Origin: Pseudoalteromonas undina
Lineage (GTDB): Bacteria > Pseudomonadota > Gammaproteobacteria > Enterobacterales > Alteromonadaceae
Length of the DNA: 64,000 bases
Assembly (NCBI RefSeq): GCF_000238275.3
Contig: NZ_AHCF03000004.1
Location: forward strand, 124,001-188,000
Reading direction: 5' to 3'
Part shown: piece by piece, positions 1 to 10,326 of the stretch
How positions within the stretch are numbered: the stretch's first letter is position 1
Layout: every line of letters begins with the position of its first letter
Made by a program: the position numbers and the translations under genes
Notes under the pieces: generated by a model
Database searches by the model: none
Seen by the model: the letters and a program-made list of their open reading frames with translations, nothing else
What the model was told of the DNA's origin: nothing

Positions 1-842
1 AGTTGGCTGAAAAAGTAACATTAGTAATTTTTGATGAAGCCCACAAAGCTGTAGCTCCTAAGTTTCAAGAAGTTGTTCAAGACTTTATTGATGACAAAGC
101 ATTTCACGCTGACTTAATTGGTTTAACTGCCACTCCTGGCAGAAGCTACTCTGAAGATGGACTATCCGAAGAAGATGCTCGTTTAGCTAATTTTTTCTAC
201 AACAATAAAGTTTCTATGCAAATATCAGGTTATCTCTCGCCAATAGATTACTTGGTTGAAAAGGGTTATTTAGCTAAAGCAAACTTTAAGTCATTAAACT
301 ATGACCACTCCGGTATTGCTGCATATGAACTAAGAGATGCCGGCGGTGTAGAAACAATGACGACGTTAGCAAATAACATAGAGCGAAATCGTCAGATCCT
401 CAGTGCGATTATTGATGAATGTAAACTTGGGTCACAAATCATTGTTTTTGCCTGCACCGTTGATCACGGAATTAACCTTGCCACTGCACTTGCTTATCAA
501 GGTATTAAAGCAGCTTCTATTGATAGTAAAAATGACACAGTAGAGAGCCGCAGAGCAAAAATAGCGCAATATAAAAATGGTGAGCTGCAAGTTCTTGTTA
601 ATTTTAATGTCCTAACAGCAGGATTTGATGCACCTAAAACTAACGTTACTGTAATTGCTAAGCCAATGAACTCCTTAGTACAGTATTTGCAAATGGCGGG
701 CCGTGCTATGCGTGGCTATAAAAGCGGCGGTAACAAAGAATGCAATATTTATACAGTGATGGATAACATACCTGAATTTCAAAGTATTAGCCTCGCATTT
801 GGTTATTGGAATGATATGTGGGCAGAAAAGGATATAAAATAA
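1..842 (+). CDS. DEAD/DEAH-box (SF2) helicase, restriction-type, 5' partial
   Basis: This is the C-terminal part of a superfamily 2 helicase; the reading frame is open to the window edge, so the N-terminus with the Walker A motif is missing. The visible part starts just before the DEAH box (DEAHKA, about residues 11-16). It continues with motif III (GLTATPG), a helicase C-terminal domain, motif V (TAGFDAP) and motif VI (QMAGRAMRG). The layout resembles helicase subunits of type I/III restriction enzymes and the helicase-type restriction proteins linked to DNA phosphorothioation; the family assignment is inference. Its TAA shares one base with the ATG of the next gene (TAATG), so the two are probably translationally coupled. 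Confidence 0.85.
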   Translation, partial: LAEKVTLVIFDEAHKAVAPKFQEVVQDFIDDKAFHADLIGLTATPGRSYSEDGLSEEDARLANFFYNNKVSMQISGYLSPIDYLVEKGYLAKANFKSLNYDHSGIAAYELRDAGGVETMTTLANNIERNRQILSAIIDECKLGSQIIVFACTVDHGINLATALAYQGIKAASIDSKNDTVESRRAKIAQYKNGELQVLVNFNVLTAGFDAPKTNVTVIAKPMNSLVQYLQMAGRAMRGYKSGGNKECNIYTVMDNIPEFQSISLAFGYWNDMWAEKDIK

Positions 843-2647
843 TGAGTAATAGATTTTTAAGTGCTGAGACTGTTATTGAGTCATTAAGGGATAATGGTTA
901 CAACAATACAGCATACGCTTTAGCTGAACTTATCGATAATAGCTTACAAGCAACGGCCACCCGTGTAGAAGTTGGTTTTATAGAAGAACAACTAAAAGCC
1001 CGTAAAAATTATACCGTATCAGAAATCTCCCTTTGGGATAATGGTGTAGGTATGGATATCGATACCCTTAGAGTTGCTATGCAATTTGGTGGCGGTACAC
1101 ACCGTAAAGATACGGGCGGTATGGGTAAGTTTGGTATGGGATTACCAAATTCATCCATTTCACAGTGTAAGCGCGTTGATGTATGGAGTTGGCAAGCCGG
1201 TGCGGAGCCCCACCATACTTATTTAGATGTTGATGAGATGAAAAGTGGTGCGCTAGAAGAAGTCCCAATGCCCACAGCAAAGACAATACCAGCTAAGTAC
1301 GAAAAAGCATTTTTTACTAAAAAACCGGAATCTGGCACATTAATTATTTGGTCCAAGCTTGACCGTTTAAGCTGGAAAACGGGAAAATCTATTTACCGTC
1401 ATTGCGAACATTTAGTCGGTCGTATGTATCGTAATTTCATTAGTGATGACAACATAAAAATAGAAAGTATTACTTATCGTAAATCAGCAGATGACAGACT
1501 TGATGTTTACGATAAAGATACTTTTAAAGCAAACGATCCAATGTATCTTAAGAAGAATACTTCACTCCCAGAATTACCTGGTAGTTATAAAAATGAAGCG
1601 TTTTTTGAAAAAATGGATGAAGAAGTCATCTCCGTTGAATATATCGATGAAAATGGTGAGCCTAAACGAGATGATGTAACTGTTACCACCTCAATGGTTA
1701 AAAAGAATATATCAAATCGTATTTTAAAGGATACTGTTGGTAAGTTAGGCGGTACTACTTGGGGTAAGCATTGCAGCAAAAATGTTGGGGTTTCAATTGT
1801 TCGTGCTAATCGAGAGTTAGTTTTAAGAGACTCATTCTTAACTTCTGCTTTAAGAGAGAGTAAAGGACGTTTTATTGGTATTGAAGTATCCTTCCCGCCA
1901 ACGCTTGATGCTGTGTTTGGTGTAACGAATAATAAGCAAGATGCAATTCGTTTAATTCCTTATGAAATGAAAACTATTTTTACTCAAGCTGGATTCGATT
2001 CTGAGCAAGAATACCTACGAGATTTAGAAGAGAATTCTGATTCATTACTTCAAGTACTTAAAGTAGTGGCAGTAATTAAAAAGCATGTATCAGCTTTAAC
2101 TAAAGAGTTAGATACAATAAATGTTGAAGGCAAAGCTGTAAAAGGGGAAGAGCCTAAAACAGTGTCTGAAGGCGCAGCATCTAAAGCAACACAAGGCTCT
2201 GCACATCGTGAAACTCATGGCCATAAAACTAAAGAAGAAGCACCAAAAGAGCTAAAGAAAGAGGATGTTGTTGATCATCTTAAAAAAGCAGGTGGAATGA
2301 GTGATGAAGAAGCTGAAGAAAAAGCTGAGCGCCTTATCCTTACAGGAAACCGTTTTTTAATTGAAGACGTAGCACGAGATTCTGAAGCCTTTTTTGACGT
2401 ATCAACAAGTAAAGGTTTAACGCTTGTATTATTCAATACCAACCACGTATTTTATCAAAAGCTTGTAAGCAAACTCGGTGGTGATGAGCTTGAAATAATG
2501 CAAACTACAATTGCAGGTTTTGCACGAGTGATGAATGAAACAACTGACGAAAAGCGTTTAAATTATCTAAATACTATTCGCCGAGAGTGGGGGTTAGTGA
2601 TTAGTGAGTTCCTTCAAGGCCCTGAAGATGATGCGGACGACTTTTAA
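842..2647 (+). CDS. GHKL (Hsp90/MORC-like) ATPase of a defence-type operon
   Basis: The predicted protein has 601 residues. An N-terminal GHKL ATPase fold is shown by an N-box (AELIDNSLQA, E29 and N33), a G1 box (DNGVGM, residues 66-71) and a glycine-rich G2 lid (GGMGKFGMG, 92-100). The combination is closer to MORC, MutL or Hsp90 ATPases than to histidine kinases, and no phospho-acceptor domain is present. A charged Lys/Glu-rich linker lies near residues 430-485. An upstream in-frame start at 818 would add eight residues, but ATG 842 has AAAGGA about 9 nt upstream and forms a TAATG junction with the helicase. Its TAA overlaps the next ATG by one base. An ATP-gated clamp or sensor role in defence is inferred from the neighbours. 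Confidence 0.82.
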   Translation: MSNRFLSAETVIESLRDNGYNNTAYALAELIDNSLQATATRVEVGFIEEQLKARKNYTVSEISLWDNGVGMDIDTLRVAMQFGGGTHRKDTGGMGKFGMGLPNSSISQCKRVDVWSWQAGAEPHHTYLDVDEMKSGALEEVPMPTAKTIPAKYEKAFFTKKPESGTLIIWSKLDRLSWKTGKSIYRHCEHLVGRMYRNFISDDNIKIESITYRKSADDRLDVYDKDTFKANDPMYLKKNTSLPELPGSYKNEAFFEKMDEEVISVEYIDENGEPKRDDVTVTTSMVKKNISNRILKDTVGKLGGTTWGKHCSKNVGVSIVRANRELVLRDSFLTSALRESKGRFIGIEVSFPPTLDAVFGVTNNKQDAIRLIPYEMKTIFTQAGFDSEQEYLRDLEENSDSLLQVLKVVAVIKKHVSALTKELDTINVEGKAVKGEEPKTVSEGAASKATQGSAHRETHGHKTKEEAPKELKKEDVVDHLKKAGGMSDEEAEEKAERLILTGNRFLIEDVARDSEAFFDVSTSKGLTLVLFNTNHVFYQKLVSKLGGDELEIMQTTIAGFARVMNETTDEKRLNYLNTIRREWGLVISEFLQGPEDDADDF

Positions 2648-3570
2648 TGTCGAGCTTAATCTCAAGTTCAGAGCTTACATATCAGCTAGAGAAATTATTA
2701 CCTAGCTGTAAAAATTTAACTATTATATCTGCTTTTATGACCCGATCAGCGACAAGCTGGTTGGGTCGATTAATTTCTAACAATAAACCTAAAGTGCAAT
2801 TGATAGGCCGTTTTACACCAACTGATTTTGCAAAAGGTGCAAGTGACTTAAATGCACTTCGAGATTGCATTAACAGTGGCTACCAAGTTAAAGCACTAAT
2901 AAACCTGCACGCAAAAATTTATCAAATAGATCAAGACACTATTTTTAATGGCAGTGCTAATTTAACGGGTAAAGGGTTAGCCTTAGTTAATAACGGTAAC
3001 TTAGAATCCTGTAGTAGGGTAAATGCTTGTGAACAATCTAAAGCATTCATTAATAAAGTTGTTGAATCAGCAACTGAGTTAAGTATAAATACGCTTGATA
3101 AAATGCAGGCGTTTTTAGAACAATTTGATGATGCGGATGAAACAGAGTTACCTGCTGTATGGCCCGAAGAGATAATGCCTCAAACAACTGAGCTGTTTGT
3201 ATCAGACTTCCCGCTAGGTAAACCAGGTGTTACTTTGAATGAATACCAACTCAACTCTTCGTTACCTTTTGCTCAAATTGAGAATGCTAAAGACGATTTT
3301 GCATTAGCGTCAACTTTATTTAAGCAAGCAAAGGCATACCGTTGGTTAAAAAAACAAATTACTGAAAATCAGTCAGAACGAGACTTGGGTTTCGGGCAAA
3401 TATCAAGGTTGCTGCATGACGCATTAGCTGATGACCCAGTACCTTATCGGCAAGAAATAAAAGATCTCCAAGCAAATTTATATTCCTATTTAAAGCTCTA
3501 TGCAAGTGATGAAATAGAGGTTTATATGCCAGGTAGACGAAGTGAAGTTTTAAGAATAATTAAGGAATAA
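2647..3570 (+). CDS. Phospholipase D-family nuclease (single HKD motif)
   Basis: The 307-residue protein has a PLD-like N-terminal domain. It carries one HxK signature (LHAKIYQID, H88 and K90) followed by NGSANLTGKG (about 101-110), the usual Ser/Asn arrangement of PLD-type nucleases. One HKD motif implies a homodimer with a shared active site, as known for Nuc and BfiI. The C-terminal half (about 150-307) is helical with no recognised domain. There is no signal peptide, which argues for cytoplasmic nuclease action rather than lipid hydrolysis. ATG 2647 lies inside the stop codon of the ATPase gene and the next gene begins 3 nt after this stop. The probable role is the effector nuclease of the ATPase/helicase operon. 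Confidence 0.8.
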   Translation: MSSLISSSELTYQLEKLLPSCKNLTIISAFMTRSATSWLGRLISNNKPKVQLIGRFTPTDFAKGASDLNALRDCINSGYQVKALINLHAKIYQIDQDTIFNGSANLTGKGLALVNNGNLESCSRVNACEQSKAFINKVVESATELSINTLDKMQAFLEQFDDADETELPAVWPEEIMPQTTELFVSDFPLGKPGVTLNEYQLNSSLPFAQIENAKDDFALASTLFKQAKAYRWLKKQITENQSERDLGFGQISRLLHDALADDPVPYRQEIKDLQANLYSYLKLYASDEIEVYMPGRRSEVLRIIKE

Positions 3571-3573
3571 GTA

Positions 3574-5946
3574 ATGAGTATTTATGAAGGTGCGTCAAAA
3601 AGTATAGGGAGCTATTTACAAGGGGAAACATATTTCTTTATACCTGAATATCAGCGCAAGTACTCCTGGTCTGAAAGAAATGTGAAAGAGTTAATTAGTG
3701 ATATTGAAATTGGACTTAGATCACTAACTATAGCTCAAGAAGAAAAGCGAGAGAAGAACTCTAGTACTTACTTAGGTTGTGTTATTGATTGGCATCGTGA
3801 TGCAAAAGATAGTGATTATTTAGCTGAACATATTAATAATAAATATATAAATAAAGTTCGCGAGCTAATCGATGGTCAACAGCGAACTTCAACTCTGGCT
3901 ATTTTATCGTCTCGTTTATACCTAAAGCTGGAAAAAATCCTACTTACACTAGATCTAAATATTGATGAGGAGAAAAAGTTAGCTGAGGATGTTTTCAAAA
4001 CCTACCAGGAAGGTATCCTTTTACCTTCCTTTTCTAGAAAAGATGCGAGTTCGGAAACTCTACGCCCATTCATAATACGAGAAGGTGAAGATCTATGGTC
4101 ACTGGAGTGTAGTTCATCATATAAGTCACCCTTGAGTAATTATTTATCTCAAATCATTGTATTTATAGAAAAAATAAATTCAGGTTTAGATGGTAGTATC
4201 GAAGTTGAGGATGCTCCATGTTCTGATGATGAACAATTGAAAGTAGCTATCGACACTTGTGACCAACAAATCGAGTGTTTGTTAGATAATTTGACTGAGT
4301 GTAGAATTATTGATGTATTTTTTAAAGGTAAGGAGTTATTTCCTGGTCTGAATACAAAATACTCAAAGGTGGATTTGAATGAGTATATCTTAAATAACCC
4401 TAAGAGAATCCAGGTTATTTCTGAGATTATAGGGTTGTGTTCTTACATTAAATACATGCATAAATATTGCTTTTTGACAATTATATCATCACCTTCTCAA
4501 GAAAAATCGCTTGATATCTTTCAGTCAATTAATTCTACTGGCGAGCAGTTAACAGCATTTGATCTTGTAAAACCTATGCTTGCGAAATGCTTTAAAGCAG
4601 ACAATTTGCTTTTCAAAGATTCTGGGGCATTTAAAGTCTTTAATGAAGTTGATGAGTGGGTTTCAAAAGGTAATAAGTGGTATCGTTCTCAAACAAGAAT
4701 CAAAAGCTTTTTCGAAATTGCTAAGTTTTATTTTAATATTGATTCGCAAGCATCTAATTTAACAGGGCAGAGAAAAATAATAACTCAAGGATTGAGTAAT
4801 TGTCTGAAAAACAGAGATGAAGAAGGCGATGGCGTTGGCACTTATAACAATCTAAACCAATCGGAAATTGCTACAGAGTTTTGTGAAATTTTACTTAGCA
4901 TAAAGTGTTACCTTGAATACTTTACGTTAAACAAGGACTTTAATACAAAATTTTCTGACGATGCAGTATATTTAGACAAGAGCAGGCAACACTTATTTGA
5001 TAGAAAGGTTGCTTTCAATTTCTTCTATATCTTAGATTCTCATGATATATGTAATGCTTTCCTGGTCTCTATTTACCATAAATATCGAATGTCACATTCT
5101 GAAAACAGCGAAAGCTATAAGCTTCTACTGTTTAGAGCAATTAACTTATCAGCGATAATTTTCACAAAGTGCAGATTGTTAATTAATAAGTATCCAGATG
5201 GGTTTTGGAAGCAAAAATATAAAGATGGCCTTCTATACAAAAAGGAGATAGAGCTCAGTTATGTGGAAAATATAAAAGCTTCATTTGATGGACATATGGA
5301 AGTTCAGTTCGGTTTGAGCTCTTCAGATGCAAGCTTTAACGAAGTACAGCAACAGCAAATAGTGAAAAACCTCACTTACTCATCAGCAAAGCCACTTATT
5401 AAGTTTTTTATGTTTTATGCGGCGACTAATACACTACCCGGTACAGGTGAGGAAGTAGGTTTGAATCGTTATTCTACAAAAGGAAATGATTTAATCAGAC
5501 CATCTAATTGGATTAATAATGATTACCAATCGGTCGAGCATATTGCTCCAAAAGATCTTTTAAATAAACAGATACCTCCTTGGGACATTAAGCTTTGCGA
5601 TGCTTCTGATTCTATCAATTCCGTGGGAAATTTAACCTTACTAAATCCAAGTATTAACTATTCTATAAAATGTGGGGCTAAGGCTAAAGCTGAAGCTTTT
5701 GCTAAGTTATTGGATGACAATTTTACAGTTGAAGCACAATACATAACTGATTACTGCTCTTCTTTAGTTGACTACAGTGAAAGGTTGCACCATTTAAAAG
5801 CAATTTCCGAAAGACTCTGTAAATGGGTTTTAGTTGATCTTGAAAAAGAAGATGTAACTTTTGATTGGGACAAAGATTTTATAACAAAACGCTCATTAAG
5901 ATTGGCAGAGATATTTTTAAAGAACTTGCAATTAGAGGCTCTTTAA
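3574..5946 (+). CDS. GmrSD-like DUF262/DUF1524 restriction protein
   Basis: The 790-residue protein joins an N-terminal DUF262 ParB-like NTPase domain to a C-terminal DUF1524 HNH-type nuclease. DUF262 is shown by FIPEYQRKYSW (about 22-32) and IDGQQRTSTL (about 99-108). DUF1524 is shown by SVEHIAPKD (about 652-660) and SVGNLTLLNPSINYSIK (about 686-702). This is the single-chain GmrSD arrangement of type IV, modification-dependent restriction enzymes, which cleave glucosylated hydroxymethylcytosine phage DNA; substrate specificity of this member is unknown. AAGGAATAAGTAATG gives a good ribosome-binding site. It continues the preceding operon at a 3 nt distance and is followed 2 nt later by an HNH gene. 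Confidence 0.85.
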   Translation: MSIYEGASKSIGSYLQGETYFFIPEYQRKYSWSERNVKELISDIEIGLRSLTIAQEEKREKNSSTYLGCVIDWHRDAKDSDYLAEHINNKYINKVRELIDGQQRTSTLAILSSRLYLKLEKILLTLDLNIDEEKKLAEDVFKTYQEGILLPSFSRKDASSETLRPFIIREGEDLWSLECSSSYKSPLSNYLSQIIVFIEKINSGLDGSIEVEDAPCSDDEQLKVAIDTCDQQIECLLDNLTECRIIDVFFKGKELFPGLNTKYSKVDLNEYILNNPKRIQVISEIIGLCSYIKYMHKYCFLTIISSPSQEKSLDIFQSINSTGEQLTAFDLVKPMLAKCFKADNLLFKDSGAFKVFNEVDEWVSKGNKWYRSQTRIKSFFEIAKFYFNIDSQASNLTGQRKIITQGLSNCLKNRDEEGDGVGTYNNLNQSEIATEFCEILLSIKCYLEYFTLNKDFNTKFSDDAVYLDKSRQHLFDRKVAFNFFYILDSHDICNAFLVSIYHKYRMSHSENSESYKLLLFRAINLSAIIFTKCRLLINKYPDGFWKQKYKDGLLYKKEIELSYVENIKASFDGHMEVQFGLSSSDASFNEVQQQQIVKNLTYSSAKPLIKFFMFYAATNTLPGTGEEVGLNRYSTKGNDLIRPSNWINNDYQSVEHIAPKDLLNKQIPPWDIKLCDASDSINSVGNLTLLNPSINYSIKCGAKAKAEAFAKLLDDNFTVEAQYITDYCSSLVDYSERLHHLKAISERLCKWVLVDLEKEDVTFDWDKDFITKRSLRLAEIFLKNLQLEAL

Positions 5947-5948
5947 TT

Positions 5949-6743
5949 ATGGGTTCAATATTAAAGTACCCATTTACATCACACTCATGGACTTTACTTT
6001 CTGAAAATATAGTGATAAAAAAAGCTGATAAATCTTTAATTAATAGCTTTGAGTCAGGCGTACCTAAAGATATAGTTATTTTTTTCATTGATAAAAAACT
6101 AGGTTTAGGGGAGCATAGTGAACCTCTTGAGTTTTATATTAATAGCAATGTCTTTTATATTACACTCAATCGTAAATCATCAGGCAGACATTACCTTACT
6201 TTTTCCAGTGCAAAAAATGAACTTTCAGAAATGGGAATATCAATAGGTGATAACGTTTGGTTCGAAAAAAGCCCTACCCAGAAAAATAAATTTTATCTCT
6301 ATACTAAAGGCTATTCTAAAAATTCAATTTTACCTGATTTAAAAAAGTTTGAGGTAACAGAAGGTTTAGGTTTAGTTAACTATAGGTTAGGTCAATCGTA
6401 TTTCAGAGATAATGTGATTCAAGAGTGTAAAGGAAAATGTATCGTTACCAATGTGACTGATCATTCAATATTGGTTGCAAGCCATATAAAGCCTTGGAAA
6501 TACTCTAATAATATTGAAAAATACGATGGTTCAAATGGATTGTTACTTGCCCCTCACGTTGATAAATTATTTGATAGAGGTTTAATTACTTTTAATAATA
6601 AAGGTCGTATTGTCATTTCTCAATTATTGTCAAAACGTGTATTAGAATTATGGAATATTAATAGAGATAAAAATTATTTTTTTACAGCTAATCAAATGCA
6701 TTATATGGAATACCATGGTAAGGAAGTTTTTAAGGGTATTTAA
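5949..6743 (+). CDS. HNH_2-family endonuclease
   Basis: The 264-residue protein has a C-terminal HNH nuclease of the restriction-associated HNH_2 type. It contains CIVTNVTDHSILVASHIKPW (about 163-182), where the His and Lys/Trp are characteristic, and NGLLLAPHVDKLFDRG (about 198-213). The N-terminal 140 residues, probably a specificity domain, match nothing I recognise. The longer frame from 5865 overlaps the upstream gene deeply; ATG 5949 lies 2 nt after that gene's stop, with AGAGG about 10 nt upstream, and is preferred. Its TAA overlaps the stop of the convergent methyltransferase in a shared TTAA. With the preceding DUF1524 protein this gives two HNH-type nucleases side by side. Confidence 0.8.
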   Translation: MGSILKYPFTSHSWTLLSENIVIKKADKSLINSFESGVPKDIVIFFIDKKLGLGEHSEPLEFYINSNVFYITLNRKSSGRHYLTFSSAKNELSEMGISIGDNVWFEKSPTQKNKFYLYTKGYSKNSILPDLKKFEVTEGLGLVNYRLGQSYFRDNVIQECKGKCIVTNVTDHSILVASHIKPWKYSNNIEKYDGSNGLLLAPHVDKLFDRGLITFNNKGRIVISQLLSKRVLELWNINRDKNYFFTANQMHYMEYHGKEVFKGI

Positions 6744-8770
6744 CTTCGGTAAAAACGATAACTCTTAATCCGCAATTTCACCTGGTTTAATAATGCAATA
6801 AGTTGATTATATTTAATATTTCGATACTCACTATCAAGCTTGCTAAGTTCTTCCCAAAGGCGTTTATTAAACGCCTTTTGTTTTTTATAGTCCTCAAACG
6901 TATCGTCAATGTAATCTATTTTATTGAGGAGGAGCGGTCGTTTTTCTTCAATGACGTAATCAAAAAAATCAACATCCTGATCTGCCATTTTTATTTTAAC
7001 GCGTTCTTTTAACTGTGGGAGCGGAGAGTCATAAAACCCTTCATAACCAAGCAGTGTTACCTTACCCGAATGTATATGAACTTTTATAAGCTGAATATCA
7101 TCAAGCTCGCCATACATTTGTAGGGCTGCGCCAATATATACACGAAGTACGAGTGGTAATAAGGTGATAAAGTCTTTATGCAGTGTTAGTGCATGGGGCT
7201 GGCCGTTTTCAAAATCGATTTTACCTGCAGGTAATATCTTCTCAGCTTCTAGGCATAGTGATTCAATCAATGCACTATCTGCTATTTGAAAAAGCAGCTC
7301 AGTGGCTTGGTGCTGCGCTATTTTGTAAGTGTCGAAGAATGCTTTAATGTCGCGCTTTAAGTCTTCAGGTTGTTGTGCATATGGTTTACGCTTTTCAAAC
7401 ATAGCAAGAGCAAAATAAAGAAGTAAATCTTCTTTACGCATTGTTTCAGCGGTTGTTAGCTCGTCTTCTTCAAACCACTTTAAAACAAGTTGTAGGGCTT
7501 TTTTATTTGAACCAATAACTTCTTTTATTTTGTCACTTTGCGCAAATTCATTGTTTGCAGGGCAGCGGCCTAGCGTTAAACACGTTAACCAAAACGATTC
7601 AAAAAGTTGCTGATGCTGCGTAAATAAAATACGCGCTTGTTCTTCATTAACAGGCTCAGGCGCTGTTAGGTGTTGCCACTTATAAGTACGTTTATGACGG
7701 TTTTGTAAAAAGTGCTGTTCTAGTTGTTTGTCTTTAAATATATAGTAAATACCAGGAGCTACAGCAATCGCGTTTTCGTCAACGCTCATTTCTATAAACG
7801 CTTTAAGCTCAGCTTGCGTATAATATTTTTGGAAAGTATTCCGGCTTGTTATTACACCATCTTTGTATGGTTGAAACTGACTAACGAGTGATTCGTTACC
7901 TAACATTGCAGATACAACCAATAGTTTTTGTGAAAGCTCCCACGCACCAAGTAGCGCTTCTATTCGTTCATCTCGGTCTTCTATTACATTAATTACAAAA
8001 CCAATATTAACAATGTCAGAAATAACTTTATCTGCATCAGGTCGGTAATTAAGATCCCAACCTAATGCATCTATCCCATGAGCCTCTAACTCTCGTAAAT
8101 CATCACCTCTACCGCACCCGTAATCAAAAATAGAGTAATCACCATTTAAAAAGCCGTTTTTAGCTAATGTTTTTAAAGGGGCAGAAAGTTCATGCCGTAC
8201 AATTGCCGTTAAATGTCGATCAATTGTTTTGTCATCAGTAGGGCTTTGTACTGCAGAGCTTCGGAATAAACGACCATCAACTAGCTCGTATCCTTTTTTT
8301 GTAATTAAACGTTCCCACGAGCCTCTAAAGCCGATCATACGCGTGTTTTCGTATAGGCCCGCTTGCTCGCCTTCAGCAGTTAAATCACAAAATAATTGAT
8401 AGTGTTTATTAGTAGGCAAAACCATGGTTTCTTTTCGATGCAAAATAGGTGGGTTTTCGCTGTTATCGTATTTAGTTATTTTGTGCGACAGTTTTGCTAG
8501 ATCTACAGTTACGCTTTGCTTAAGCGCAGGGTATGAATCTTCATAAAAGGTTGGGTAGCTTAACAGTGAAAGTCTAAAGTCACTTTTAAATAACTTTATA
8601 AGATCGTAATCGGATTCATCAACCTTTAAAGCTTGCGCAACAACTTTAATAAATTTAACTAAATCGGCAGGTGCATCAGCAAATGCATCTTTGTGGAAAT
8701 AGATTGCATCAGGTAGCTTTTTTGCTATTTTTACTTTTTTTACAAGCTGCTTAAATTGCTCTGCGTTCAT
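6740..8770 (-). CDS. DNA phosphorothioation-associated-type methyltransferase
   Basis: The 676-residue protein contains a class I SAM-dependent methyltransferase core. Motif I is DYGCGRGDD (about 216-224), an acidic ribose-binding position follows in GWDLNYRPDAD (about 237-247), and VNIGFVINVIED (about 254-265) is the post-motif region. The long N- and C-terminal extensions and the motif wording fit the putative methyltransferase family described beside DNA phosphorothioation (dnd) loci; I make this match from memory of the family, not a search. No dnd sulfur-modification genes are visible here. It is last in a three-gene - strand operon, 3 nt after the nuclease-like gene, and converges on the HNH gene. 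Its substrate, DNA or otherwise, is unknown. Confidence 0.75.
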   Translation of the reverse strand: MNAEQFKQLVKKVKIAKKLPDAIYFHKDAFADAPADLVKFIKVVAQALKVDESDYDLIKLFKSDFRLSLLSYPTFYEDSYPALKQSVTVDLAKLSHKITKYDNSENPPILHRKETMVLPTNKHYQLFCDLTAEGEQAGLYENTRMIGFRGSWERLITKKGYELVDGRLFRSSAVQSPTDDKTIDRHLTAIVRHELSAPLKTLAKNGFLNGDYSIFDYGCGRGDDLRELEAHGIDALGWDLNYRPDADKVISDIVNIGFVINVIEDRDERIEALLGAWELSQKLLVVSAMLGNESLVSQFQPYKDGVITSRNTFQKYYTQAELKAFIEMSVDENAIAVAPGIYYIFKDKQLEQHFLQNRHKRTYKWQHLTAPEPVNEEQARILFTQHQQLFESFWLTCLTLGRCPANNEFAQSDKIKEVIGSNKKALQLVLKWFEEDELTTAETMRKEDLLLYFALAMFEKRKPYAQQPEDLKRDIKAFFDTYKIAQHQATELLFQIADSALIESLCLEAEKILPAGKIDFENGQPHALTLHKDFITLLPLVLRVYIGAALQMYGELDDIQLIKVHIHSGKVTLLGYEGFYDSPLPQLKERVKIKMADQDVDFFDYVIEEKRPLLLNKIDYIDDTFEDYKKQKAFNKRLWEELSKLDSEYRNIKYNQLIALLNQVKLRIKSYRFYRS

Positions 8771-8773
8771 AGT

Positions 8774-9610
8774 CTAATAATTTGCTAAATGTAGTGCCTG
8801 CAATTTACAGGGGCTCAATGTATCCAAACTATATAACTCATCTTGTTGATTTACAATGCAAGGGCACTCAGCAATGTAGAAGTCGATACCGTTAGGCGTT
8901 TTTATGCTCCGTAAATAAACGGGCACTATTGGCATAGACGAGGGCAGCTTTTGTAATAGGCTTAAACTAGGGTAAAGCAGTTTATGTTTGGCTAAAGAAT
9001 CAAATTTATAGCTATGCTTTGCCTCAATTACAAATAAGTGTTCTTTACCGTTTCGCTTAGCAACAAATACAGCATCGATTTCAACTTGGCCTTTTATATG
9101 CTCAAGAACGACGTTTTCGTTAGCGAGTGGTTTAAAGTTAAACGTAAATGTACTTTGCCCGTTTGCAGGCACAACCATTGTTTTATCATCTTCGAGATTA
9201 AGCGCTTCAGCCATTAACCCTGATGCTATAGCTAGATTTACAACTGAGGTTTCAGTTACTTTTGGCAGTAGTTGGAAAGCAAATAAGCTGCGAATAGAAA
9301 CATTAGGTAAAAATAACTCTGGCTGTAATTGACTAAAGAGAGATGAATCGTCAAAAAAGAATGTCTTCACATCATCCGTTTTCACAAGCGAAAAGTAAGT
9401 TTGATTAGAAGCAGGGCGAGAACCAAGCCTTAACACCATCATATTTTGGTCTTTTAAAACTTTAGGCAGTTTTTTGATTGAGTCTATAGATATTGAAGCT
9501 GCGGTGTTTGCTTTTAAATTATTAGCGTTAACATAGTCTTGGAAGCCTTGAGGAATAGATACTTTTTGTTCTTTGGCTTGCATTTCTTGCAGTAAATCGT
9601 GAAAAATCAC
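8774..9610 (-). CDS. PD-(D/E)XK nuclease-like protein
   Basis: The 278-residue protein is of unknown family. A segment near residues 175-200 reads EIDAVFV, a short turn, then LFVIEAKHSY. This gives the D (179) ... E-x-K (196-198) pattern of a PD-(D/E)XK core, as in restriction and defence endonucleases. The rest is mixed alpha/beta without recognised motifs, and there is no signal peptide. The start is GTG, directly abutting the TAA of the upstream HTH gene, with AAGG 8 nt before it. The methyltransferase follows after 3 nt. A modification-restriction pairing of the two is inference; the nuclease fold needs profile confirmation. Confidence 0.6.
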   Translation of the reverse strand: MIFHDLLQEMQAKEQKVSIPQGFQDYVNANNLKANTAASISIDSIKKLPKVLKDQNMMVLRLGSRPASNQTYFSLVKTDDVKTFFFDDSSLFSQLQPELFLPNVSIRSLFAFQLLPKVTETSVVNLAIASGLMAEALNLEDDKTMVVPANGQSTFTFNFKPLANENVVLEHIKGQVEIDAVFVAKRNGKEHLFVIEAKHSYKFDSLAKHKLLYPSLSLLQKLPSSMPIVPVYLRSIKTPNGIDFYIAECPCIVNQQDELYSLDTLSPCKLQALHLANY

Positions 9611-9775: not shown

Positions 9776-9864
9776 TTAAGTTACTCAAATAATTAAGATA
9801 ACTCAATATACCTAACAGCAATAGCAACAACAAATTTGAAGGCGGTTGCCAAGACAATTCCCCC

Positions 9865-9999
9865 GTGATCACACCCGAAATTGAATTAATGATGAGTAAT
9901 AACAGCGCATGGATGCGCGTTAAGCGATGCCTACACACGGACGTGTTTCATCGCCTTTACGTTCATATCATTAATTTGAATTGAGAGAACAGTGTGATC
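9865..9999. repeat. Nested hairpin intergenic element
   Basis: Four inverted-repeat levels are nested here. GATCACAC (9867-9874) pairs with GTGTGATC (9992-9999), and AATTAATGAT (9884-9893) pairs with ATCATTAATT (9967-9976). Inside lie the hairpin GCGCAT-GG-ATGCGC (9905-9918) and the stem GCGATG (9924-9929) with CATCGC (9949-9954), itself enclosing ACAC-GGAC-GTGT. The CATGGATG core recurs in the hairpin at 13036-13049. It looks like a small non-coding dispersed element at the border of the defence island. Confidence 0.6.
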
Positions 10000-10326
10000 C
10001 TCGGGGCGCCGAGAGATTCCAAAGAGAAGTCGGCGATTACTTCTCTTTGGTTGCCGTCGCCAACGCGACATGTAACTTCATTATTTGATGACTGTAAAGG
10101 GCGTTTACAGCAAATTTTAAAGCCTACACAGTCTGAGGTTGGCTGTATTCGATTTGAGCTATACAGCAATAGTGAGCAAACATGCTTGTTTTTAGTCGAA
10201 CAATTTACGTCGCAAGCTGCTTTGGATACGCATTATTCACAGCCCTATGTAAAAGAGGTGTTTGCATTTTATGAAACGGCGTTAGCAAAACCGGTAGAAG
10301 TAAATAAATTAGTCGCGATTGAGTAA
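9994..10326 (+). CDS. ABM-domain (antibiotic biosynthesis monooxygenase-like) protein, 5' end doubtful
   Basis: The 110-residue frame matches the ABM dimeric alpha-beta barrel from about residue 30. It contains ILKPTQSEVGCIRFELY, then a strand with FLVEQFTSQAALDTHYSQP and a C-terminal helix. ABM proteins normally begin with a first beta strand some 20 residues before the Glu-x-Gly-Cys segment. Here that part is encoded by an inverted repeat (10020-10029 with 10040-10049) and a motif, AACGCGACATGTA, found again after the gene. The GTG start and first 25 residues are therefore suspect, and the gene may be a remnant whose 5' end was replaced. If functional it would be a small cytoplasmic monooxygenase-like or heme-degrading-type protein of unknown substrate. 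Confidence 0.5.
   Translation: MILGAPRDSKEKSAITSLWLPSPTRHVTSLFDDCKGRLQQILKPTQSEVGCIRFELYSNSEQTCLFLVEQFTSQAALDTHYSQPYVKEVFAFYETALAKPVEVNKLVAIE
10020..10050. repeat. 11-bp perfect inverted repeat
   Basis: CAAAGAGAAG (10020-10029) pairs with CTTCTCTTTG (10040-10049) and the flanking C/G extends the stem by one pair, leaving a 10-nt loop. It lies within the doubtful 5' end of the ABM frame and helps mark that segment as repeat-derived. Confidence 0.6.

Follow-up and report, generated by a model that had tools for sequence, protein, structure and literature searches.

A helicase, a GHKL ATPase and a PLD-fold nuclease as a candidate restriction arm of the Ssp phosphorothioate system in Pseudoalteromonas undina

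Known Phosphorothioate-Linked Systems and Related Operons

Two restriction partners of the Ssp (single-strand phosphorothioate) immune system have been described: SspE is a phosphorothioate-sensing effector, and SspFGH attacks DNA without the sulfur mark (PMC8092258). The same source reports that 2,211 of 2,678 sspBCD loci have neither sspFGH nor sspE, and names further restriction partners as one possibility. The subject of the present work is a stretch of 64,000 nucleotides of Pseudoalteromonas undina DNA (G000:C4:124001-188000, where G000 is its own genome; the whole stretch is called the window). It begins with a five-gene operon, the first three genes of which encode an SF2 helicase, a GHKL ATPase and a PLD-fold nuclease. 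These three, hereafter the trio, are proposed with a probability of roughly 0.6 to be an unnamed restriction arm of the Ssp system, where the helicase and the GHKL protein would form a machine that licenses the PLD nuclease.

The trio resembles SspFGH in being three genes beside sspBCD and in co-occurring with SspE, with which SspFGH is reported to be compatible; it differs in composition, SspFGH containing a Walker A protein as well as an FtsK-like C-terminus (PMC8092258). The two are not the same system, as no PADLOC SspF, SspG or SspH match was found for the trio (for the full helicase among the best 25 of 30 families), and the best blastp hit of any trio protein to proteins named SspF, SspG or SspH had an E-value of 0.86. 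The SspF/G/H models do match in L053, L055, L059, L060, L074, L075 and L077. PbeABCD is also phosphorothioate-linked, and its PbeA protein is a fusion of a PLD domain with a ResIII-type helicase (PMC6459918). The trio shares this link and both domain types, but its helicase and PLD nuclease are separate proteins, it contains a GHKL ATPase and it lacks the SMC-like PbeC. PbeABCD was rejected since no PLD domain was found in the full helicase, which scores 96.6 bits on PbeA, against 830 for the PbeA of locus L009, and PbeC (an AAA/SMC-like ATPase) had no match among the seven window proteins. L009 carries true PbeA and PbeC genes in addition, next to its trio.

In 2008, MORC-type ATPases and SF2 helicases, a few with an HKD (PLD-fold) domain, were described in restriction operons with methylases (PMC2292703). 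As in these MORC/paraMORC operons, a modification locus here combines a GHKL+S5 ATPase with an adjacent SF2 helicase and with a nuclease, but the trio is tied to backbone sulfur rather than to base methylation and is without the strict MORC signature. The earlier note on this DNA, made from the sequence alone, regarded the combination of MORC and PLD as the most novel part, a view which the 2008 publication weakens. SauUSI, NgoAVII/CglI and BfiI share the PLD nuclease fold, and SauUSI is titled an ATP-dependent restriction endonuclease. SauUSI and NgoAVII are helicase-coupled, and we know of no GHKL clamp in any of these enzymes. The MzaB model of MzaABCDE matches the N-terminal GHKL domain (PADLOC, 62.6 bits). 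This system was also rejected, the NCBIfam MzaB score being 71 bits against a cut-off of 850, and the other Mza genes had no match among the seven window proteins or the five upstream-region proteins scanned. What appears to be new relative to the known MORC-helicase operons is the link to phosphorothioation: no description of a MORC-like ATPase-helicase-PLD module as a phosphorothioation partner was found in the open-access papers searched, and the words GHKL and MORC are absent from the main texts of two phosphorothioation/BREX surveys from 2024 and 2026 (PMC10853773, PMC12839542).

The Operon and Its Ssp Neighbours

The genes of the operon and its surroundings are the following (positions are those of the window unless a G000 contig is given).

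1..842 (open reading frame 3-842, open at the window edge), plus strand: C-terminal half of an SF2 helicase, ResIII/DEAD + Helicase_C, RadD-like (Pfam)
842..2647, ATG start, plus strand: GHKL (Bergerat-fold) ATPase with S5-type middle domain, MORC/MutL-like (Pfam HATPase_c_3)
2647..3570, plus strand: PLD-fold nuclease (Pfam PLDc_2/RE_NgoFVII)
3574..5946, plus strand: SspE, GmrSD_N + GmrSD_C (Pfam, PADLOC, PDB match)
5949..6743, plus strand: HNH endonuclease (Pfam HNH_2)
6740..8770, minus strand, convergent: TIGR04096 DNA-phosphorothioation-associated putative methyltransferase (NCBIfam)
8774..9610, minus strand, convergent: DUF6997 protein, within the island (Pfam)
G000:C4:116589-117710, plus strand: sspA (PADLOC SspA, 424 bits)
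C4, starting at 122960, minus strand: sspB, first of the sspB-sspC-sspD row (PADLOC SspB, 294 bits; DUF4007, 273 bits)
C4, between sspB and sspD, minus strand: sspC (PADLOC SspC, 1894 bits)
C4, row ending at 117721, minus strand: sspD (PADLOC SspD, 373 bits)

Re-deriving the coordinates and reading each junction in the sequence gave five plus-strand genes with junctions of -1, -1, +3 and +2 nucleotides, as first reported, and TAATG stop/start overlaps are found at 840-844 and 2645-2649. The overlaps are thereby confirmed; the co-translation that had been claimed would follow from them. The family names proposed for all five proteins are backed by Pfam (Helicase_C/ResIII, HATPase_c_3, PLDc_2/RE_NgoFVII, GmrSD_N + GmrSD_C and HNH_2). 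A promoter scan of the upstream region gave three sites, no better than the 2.5 obtained in shuffled sequences.

The window edge cuts off the upstream genes, and the SspABCD neighbour was therefore overlooked in the earlier note. The sspB-sspC-sspD row lies upstream of the operon and divergent from it, with a gap of about 0.24 kb. All five proteins of SspABCD-SspE are present and recognised by PADLOC, with sspA, sspB (DUF4007), sspC and sspD side by side, and this part of the locus is already known. It differs from the known arrangement in that three extra genes precede sspE and an HNH gene comes after it, so that the row contains more than the known effector. On its gene content the operon makes up the effector part of an Ssp phosphorothioate locus, because sspABCD is found upstream, SspE within and the TIGR04096 gene downstream. 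The remark that the gene set is not recognised as a named system thus holds for the trio, which is named by no PADLOC 2.0.0 model and matches none of SspFGH, PbeABCD and Mza, but not for the GmrSD-like protein, which is the described effector SspE.

The Trio Proteins

The complete helicase gene (G000:C4:123196-124842) begins 805 nucleotides upstream of the window and encodes 548 amino acids from the start used by several relatives, or 566 as the longest open reading frame. The window part scores 96 bits on NCBIfam RadD, far under the cut-off of 720. The catalytic motifs of the trio proteins are conserved among relatives; for the helicase, DEAH and QxxGRxxR are found in 37 of 37 and Walker A in 36 of 37, with one genome counted twice (L016/L058).

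Motif residues of the GHKL ATPase are invariant among the relatives aligned, and its predicted structure gives fold matches to MORC and MutL across residues 1 to about 430. It reads as paraMORC-like rather than MORC proper, because at the place of the MORC signature GhXhhpXXRhl the window has GVSIVRANREL, which departs from the signature, and the Glu after the Arg in that motif is invariant in 35 sequences. The PLD protein has a single HxK...GSxN motif (H88, K90, N105, then E120), and its predicted structure matches the PLD fold of SauUSI, NgoAVII/CglI and BfiI. In L018, L028 and L029 a second gene found by the GHKL profile (566, 1092 and 904 amino acids) lies between the GHKL and PLD genes; the two of these extra genes that were scanned, those of L018 and L028, had no Pfam match.

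Occurrence of the Trio and Its Association with Ssp

In 50 of 54 loci (32/36, 5/5 and 13/13) the helicase gene directly adjoins the GHKL gene on the same strand, and a PLD gene lies within 5 kb in 45 of the 54. The three genes thus co-occur regularly, far from rarely, and the suggestion that they form a core is borne out. A pattern-based GHKL scan gave 36 loci, with an adjacent helicase in 32, PLD within 5 kb in 29, SspB/C/D in 31 and SspE in 12. Of the five loci lacking SspB/C/D, four run into a contig end (L010, L012, L023 and L035), one of which, L010, retains sspA and the TIGR04096 gene; L021 is a real exception. The Psychrobacter locus L035, ending at the contig edge, has GHKL without a helicase or PLD gene nearby, and in L022 the gene before GHKL encodes a WG-repeat protein.

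Among 398 Pseudomonadota genomes, in what appears to be one draw, SspB was found in 11, GHKL (E <= 1e-40) in six and both in six. With the own genome excluded, the hypergeometric probability of this overlap is 3e-9, and all six GHKL genomes carry the helicase-GHKL-PLD trio. Judged from its distribution the GHKL gene is mobile, not ancestral, among closer relatives, since only the own genome among 60 of them has it. Thirteen plasmid records, a collection independent of the genome samples in which two near-identical Trichormus plasmids were kept, carry GHKL at 32-35% identity. The helicase is adjacent in 13/13 and PLD present in 11/13, and SspB/C/D lie in the fetched stretch in 11/13 and, by annotation, farther along the plasmid in the other two. 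In the plasmids L085 and L091 an unassigned protein of 359 amino acids takes the PLD place. The trio-bearing plasmids come from Alphaproteobacteria, Cyanobacteriota, Bacteroidota and Spirochaetota; loci from metagenome-assembled genomes (for example L015, labelled Nitrosopumilus, 68% identical) are possibly misbinned and were excluded from this phylum breadth. A search of 20,395 E. coli records in a distant DNA mode, which would miss divergent copies, gave no match to the GHKL gene, and phages gave one weak partial GHKL match and nothing more. Tree distances correlate at 0.97 between GHKL and helicase and at 0.39-0.55 with the four Ssp proteins (L058, from the same genome as L016, was dropped).

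Seen from the Ssp side, two unselected draws (11/369 and 11/398 genomes, the own genome in both) yielded 21 different Ssp loci of Pseudomonadota; a weaker second DUF4007 match in G308 (L052) was not counted. With SspF/G/H and Pbe search profiles built from PADLOC-named members rather than PADLOC's own models, the trio was found in seven loci, SspFGH in seven, PbeA/PbeC in one and SspE alone in one. The trio is thus about as frequent as SspFGH in this sample. No recognised partner (SspE, SspFGH, Pbe or trio) was found in five loci, namely L054, L056, L057 (a 10-kb contig), L061 and L073. In L054, genes of 785 and 637 amino acids with at most weak PADLOC matches follow sspD. Trio and SspFGH overlap in none of the 21 loci (chance 0.03), and in several loci (for example L058 and L069) the trio directly follows sspD, a place held by sspF in L059, L075 and L077; in the window it is divergent from sspB instead. 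Strict mutual exclusion was dropped, as an A. tumefaciens plasmid (L085/L098) carries helicase-GHKL plus SspFGH.

Proposed Function and Alternatives

In the proposed mechanism SspA to SspD would mark the host's DNA backbone with sulfur. The MORC-like GHKL ATPase would join the RadD-like helicase in one obligate ATP-driven machine, a suggestion backed by their adjacency and co-evolution; the helicase may track or remodel DNA, and the GHKL dimer may close around the DNA as a clamp. The clamp would then license the PLD nuclease, which, going by motif and fold, would nick or cut as a dimer, and SspE, plus the HNH enzyme here, would be further layers of the same gene row. The target would most likely be DNA lacking the sulfur mark, as for SspFGH, because in several genomes the trio occupies the position behind sspD that SspFGH holds in others. 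A mode in which the mark activates the trio, as with SspE, would be distinctly less probable.

Several observations weigh against such a restriction arm. L021 combines a GHKL gene of the same family with SspF/G-like genes, a DndH/SspH-like protein of 1748 amino acids and type I restriction-modification, with no SspB/C/D in 21.8 kb, and the clamp was possibly recruited there by another HerA/FtsK-type system. In the Psychrobacter loci L022 and L024, GHKL and Ssp genes are present and no helicase or PLD gene was found nearby. Shared ancestry inflates tree-distance correlations. The PLD gene may not encode the essential nuclease, because it is more loosely associated (GHKL-PLD r 0.46), could not be located within 5 kb in 9 of the 54 loci (some of them at contig ends) and is replaced in L085 and L091. 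The presence of both systems in L085/L098 further means that the trio is not a simple substitute for SspFGH.

Alternatively, the trio might need the sulfur mark, present on host DNA or supplied in trans, for its activation and otherwise be harmless, in the way that SspE of the same gene row acts (PMC8092258), and the observed confinement to Ssp genomes is predicted by either logic. Indirectly, the trio's occupying the place of SspFGH, an attacker of unmarked DNA, in several genomes argues against this, as does its transcription away from sspBCD over about 0.24 kb in the window, an arrangement that is also common in restriction-modification loci, and such sensing is considered rather unlikely. 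The helicase-clamp pair could also aid SspBCD in marking or repair SspB nicks without restricting phages, given that the helicase is RadD-like and that helicase-GHKL pairs with no PLD gene nearby exist (L030, L038); this is improbable, as 14 of the 21 sampled Ssp loci lack the trio, so that modification is apparently independent of it, and an HKD-type nuclease is usually attached. A self-sufficient paraMORC-helicase-nuclease defence merely sharing islands with Ssp is the least probable, for although MORC-helicase operons, in a few cases including an HKD domain, occur with methylases (PMC2292703), L021 has the ATPase outside Ssp and tree correlation with the Ssp proteins is only moderate, the presence of Ssp modification genes in 6/6 unselected genomes and 13/13 plasmids is far beyond ordinary island co-residence.

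SspE, HNH and the Convergent Genes

The GmrSD-like and HNH proteins were previously suggested to be additional layers, with which the present analysis agrees. SspE is full length, with both GmrSD_N and GmrSD_C above the Pfam cut-off; it matches PADLOC PDLC02788 with 1610 bits (residues 1-785 on profile 1-797) and the PDB structure of SspE, 6jiv, with an E-value of 7.9e-20. In the close relatives L005, L006 and L019 the slot behind the PLD gene holds a very divergent SspE (71, 67 and 55 bits to that of the window), as if the effector behind the trio had been swapped. The HNH gene is probably a strain-specific layer, a variable add-on, because its protein has few close relatives (three above 80% identity besides itself and the next at 44%, among the 120 of 1,529 matches listed) and a C-terminus resembling PDB 6yex (residues 134-263, E 1.4e-31), which we take to be TagI. 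Its similarity to NF045808, a family restricting phosphorothioated DNA, is weak (27.7 bits, under the cut-off of 180). The TIGR04096 protein scores 676 bits against an NCBIfam cut-off of 150, and its family is found in 14 of the 36 GHKL loci; the DUF6997 protein (Pfam, 57.8 bits) is seen in four of the 36.

The Island Ends

Two TwoAYGGAY RNA elements (Rfam RF01731), for which we know of no function, lie in an inverted repeat of about 220 bp, 75% identical, that brackets the Ssp island; they face outward.

Window 9853..10014, plus strand: right element (37.4 bits, under the gathering score of 43)
G000:C4:116329-116495, minus strand: left element, upstream of sspA (72.3 bits)

In 30 genomes of the genus, 21 had matches, 85 in all. 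Of 14 cases of neighbouring matches 1.5-25 kb apart, 12 are oriented outward (-/+) and none inward, while pairs closer than 1.5 kb, a cut of our own choice, are outward in eight, inward in five and on the same strand in nine. The loci looked at include L014, L006, L078, L079, L081 and L100-L107. Ten cargo proteins from eight intervals between such pairs include a PLD-helicase type IV enzyme, SIR2-HerA, an MvaI/BcnI restriction-modification pair, Lamassu LmuB, a PADLOC ankyrin protein and a VgrG-like protein with a colicin-DNase domain; two of the ten had no match in either library scanned. The elements may be the ends of a cassette carrying defence and competition genes.

Around an ABC-type ATPase gene (own copy at C4:111146-112792), TwoAYGGAY pairs lie within about 11 kb also in the relatives G020, G021, G799, G006, G029 and G010, with other cargo (L078, L079, L081, L100, L102 and L103). 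This is several times a gene of about 1050-1070 amino acids, in L079 encoding PLD-helicase-DUF3427. Judged from these neighbourhoods, the region is a shared insertion hotspot. A comparison for empty sites yielded no clean one: the downstream gene tested had matches in 2 of 40 genomes of the genus (the own genome being one of the two), and the downstream flank, repeats apart, in 0 of 5 relatives.

Significance

As a restriction arm, the trio would probably represent a third Ssp restriction class beside SspE and SspFGH, built of a MORC-type clamp, a RadD-like helicase and a PLD nuclease and using backbone sulfur as the self mark. It is a concrete candidate partner, present in 7 of the 21 Ssp loci sampled from Pseudomonadota and carried by plasmids in several phyla, and a single operon makes the question of the missing restriction partners testable. 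If true, the third class would account for some of the 'orphan' sspBCD loci. MORC-like clamps are known from eukaryotic gene silencing; the trio would be a prokaryotic complex of MORC-like type whose mark is chemically defined, and would offer a bacterial setting in which such a clamp can be studied together with that DNA mark.

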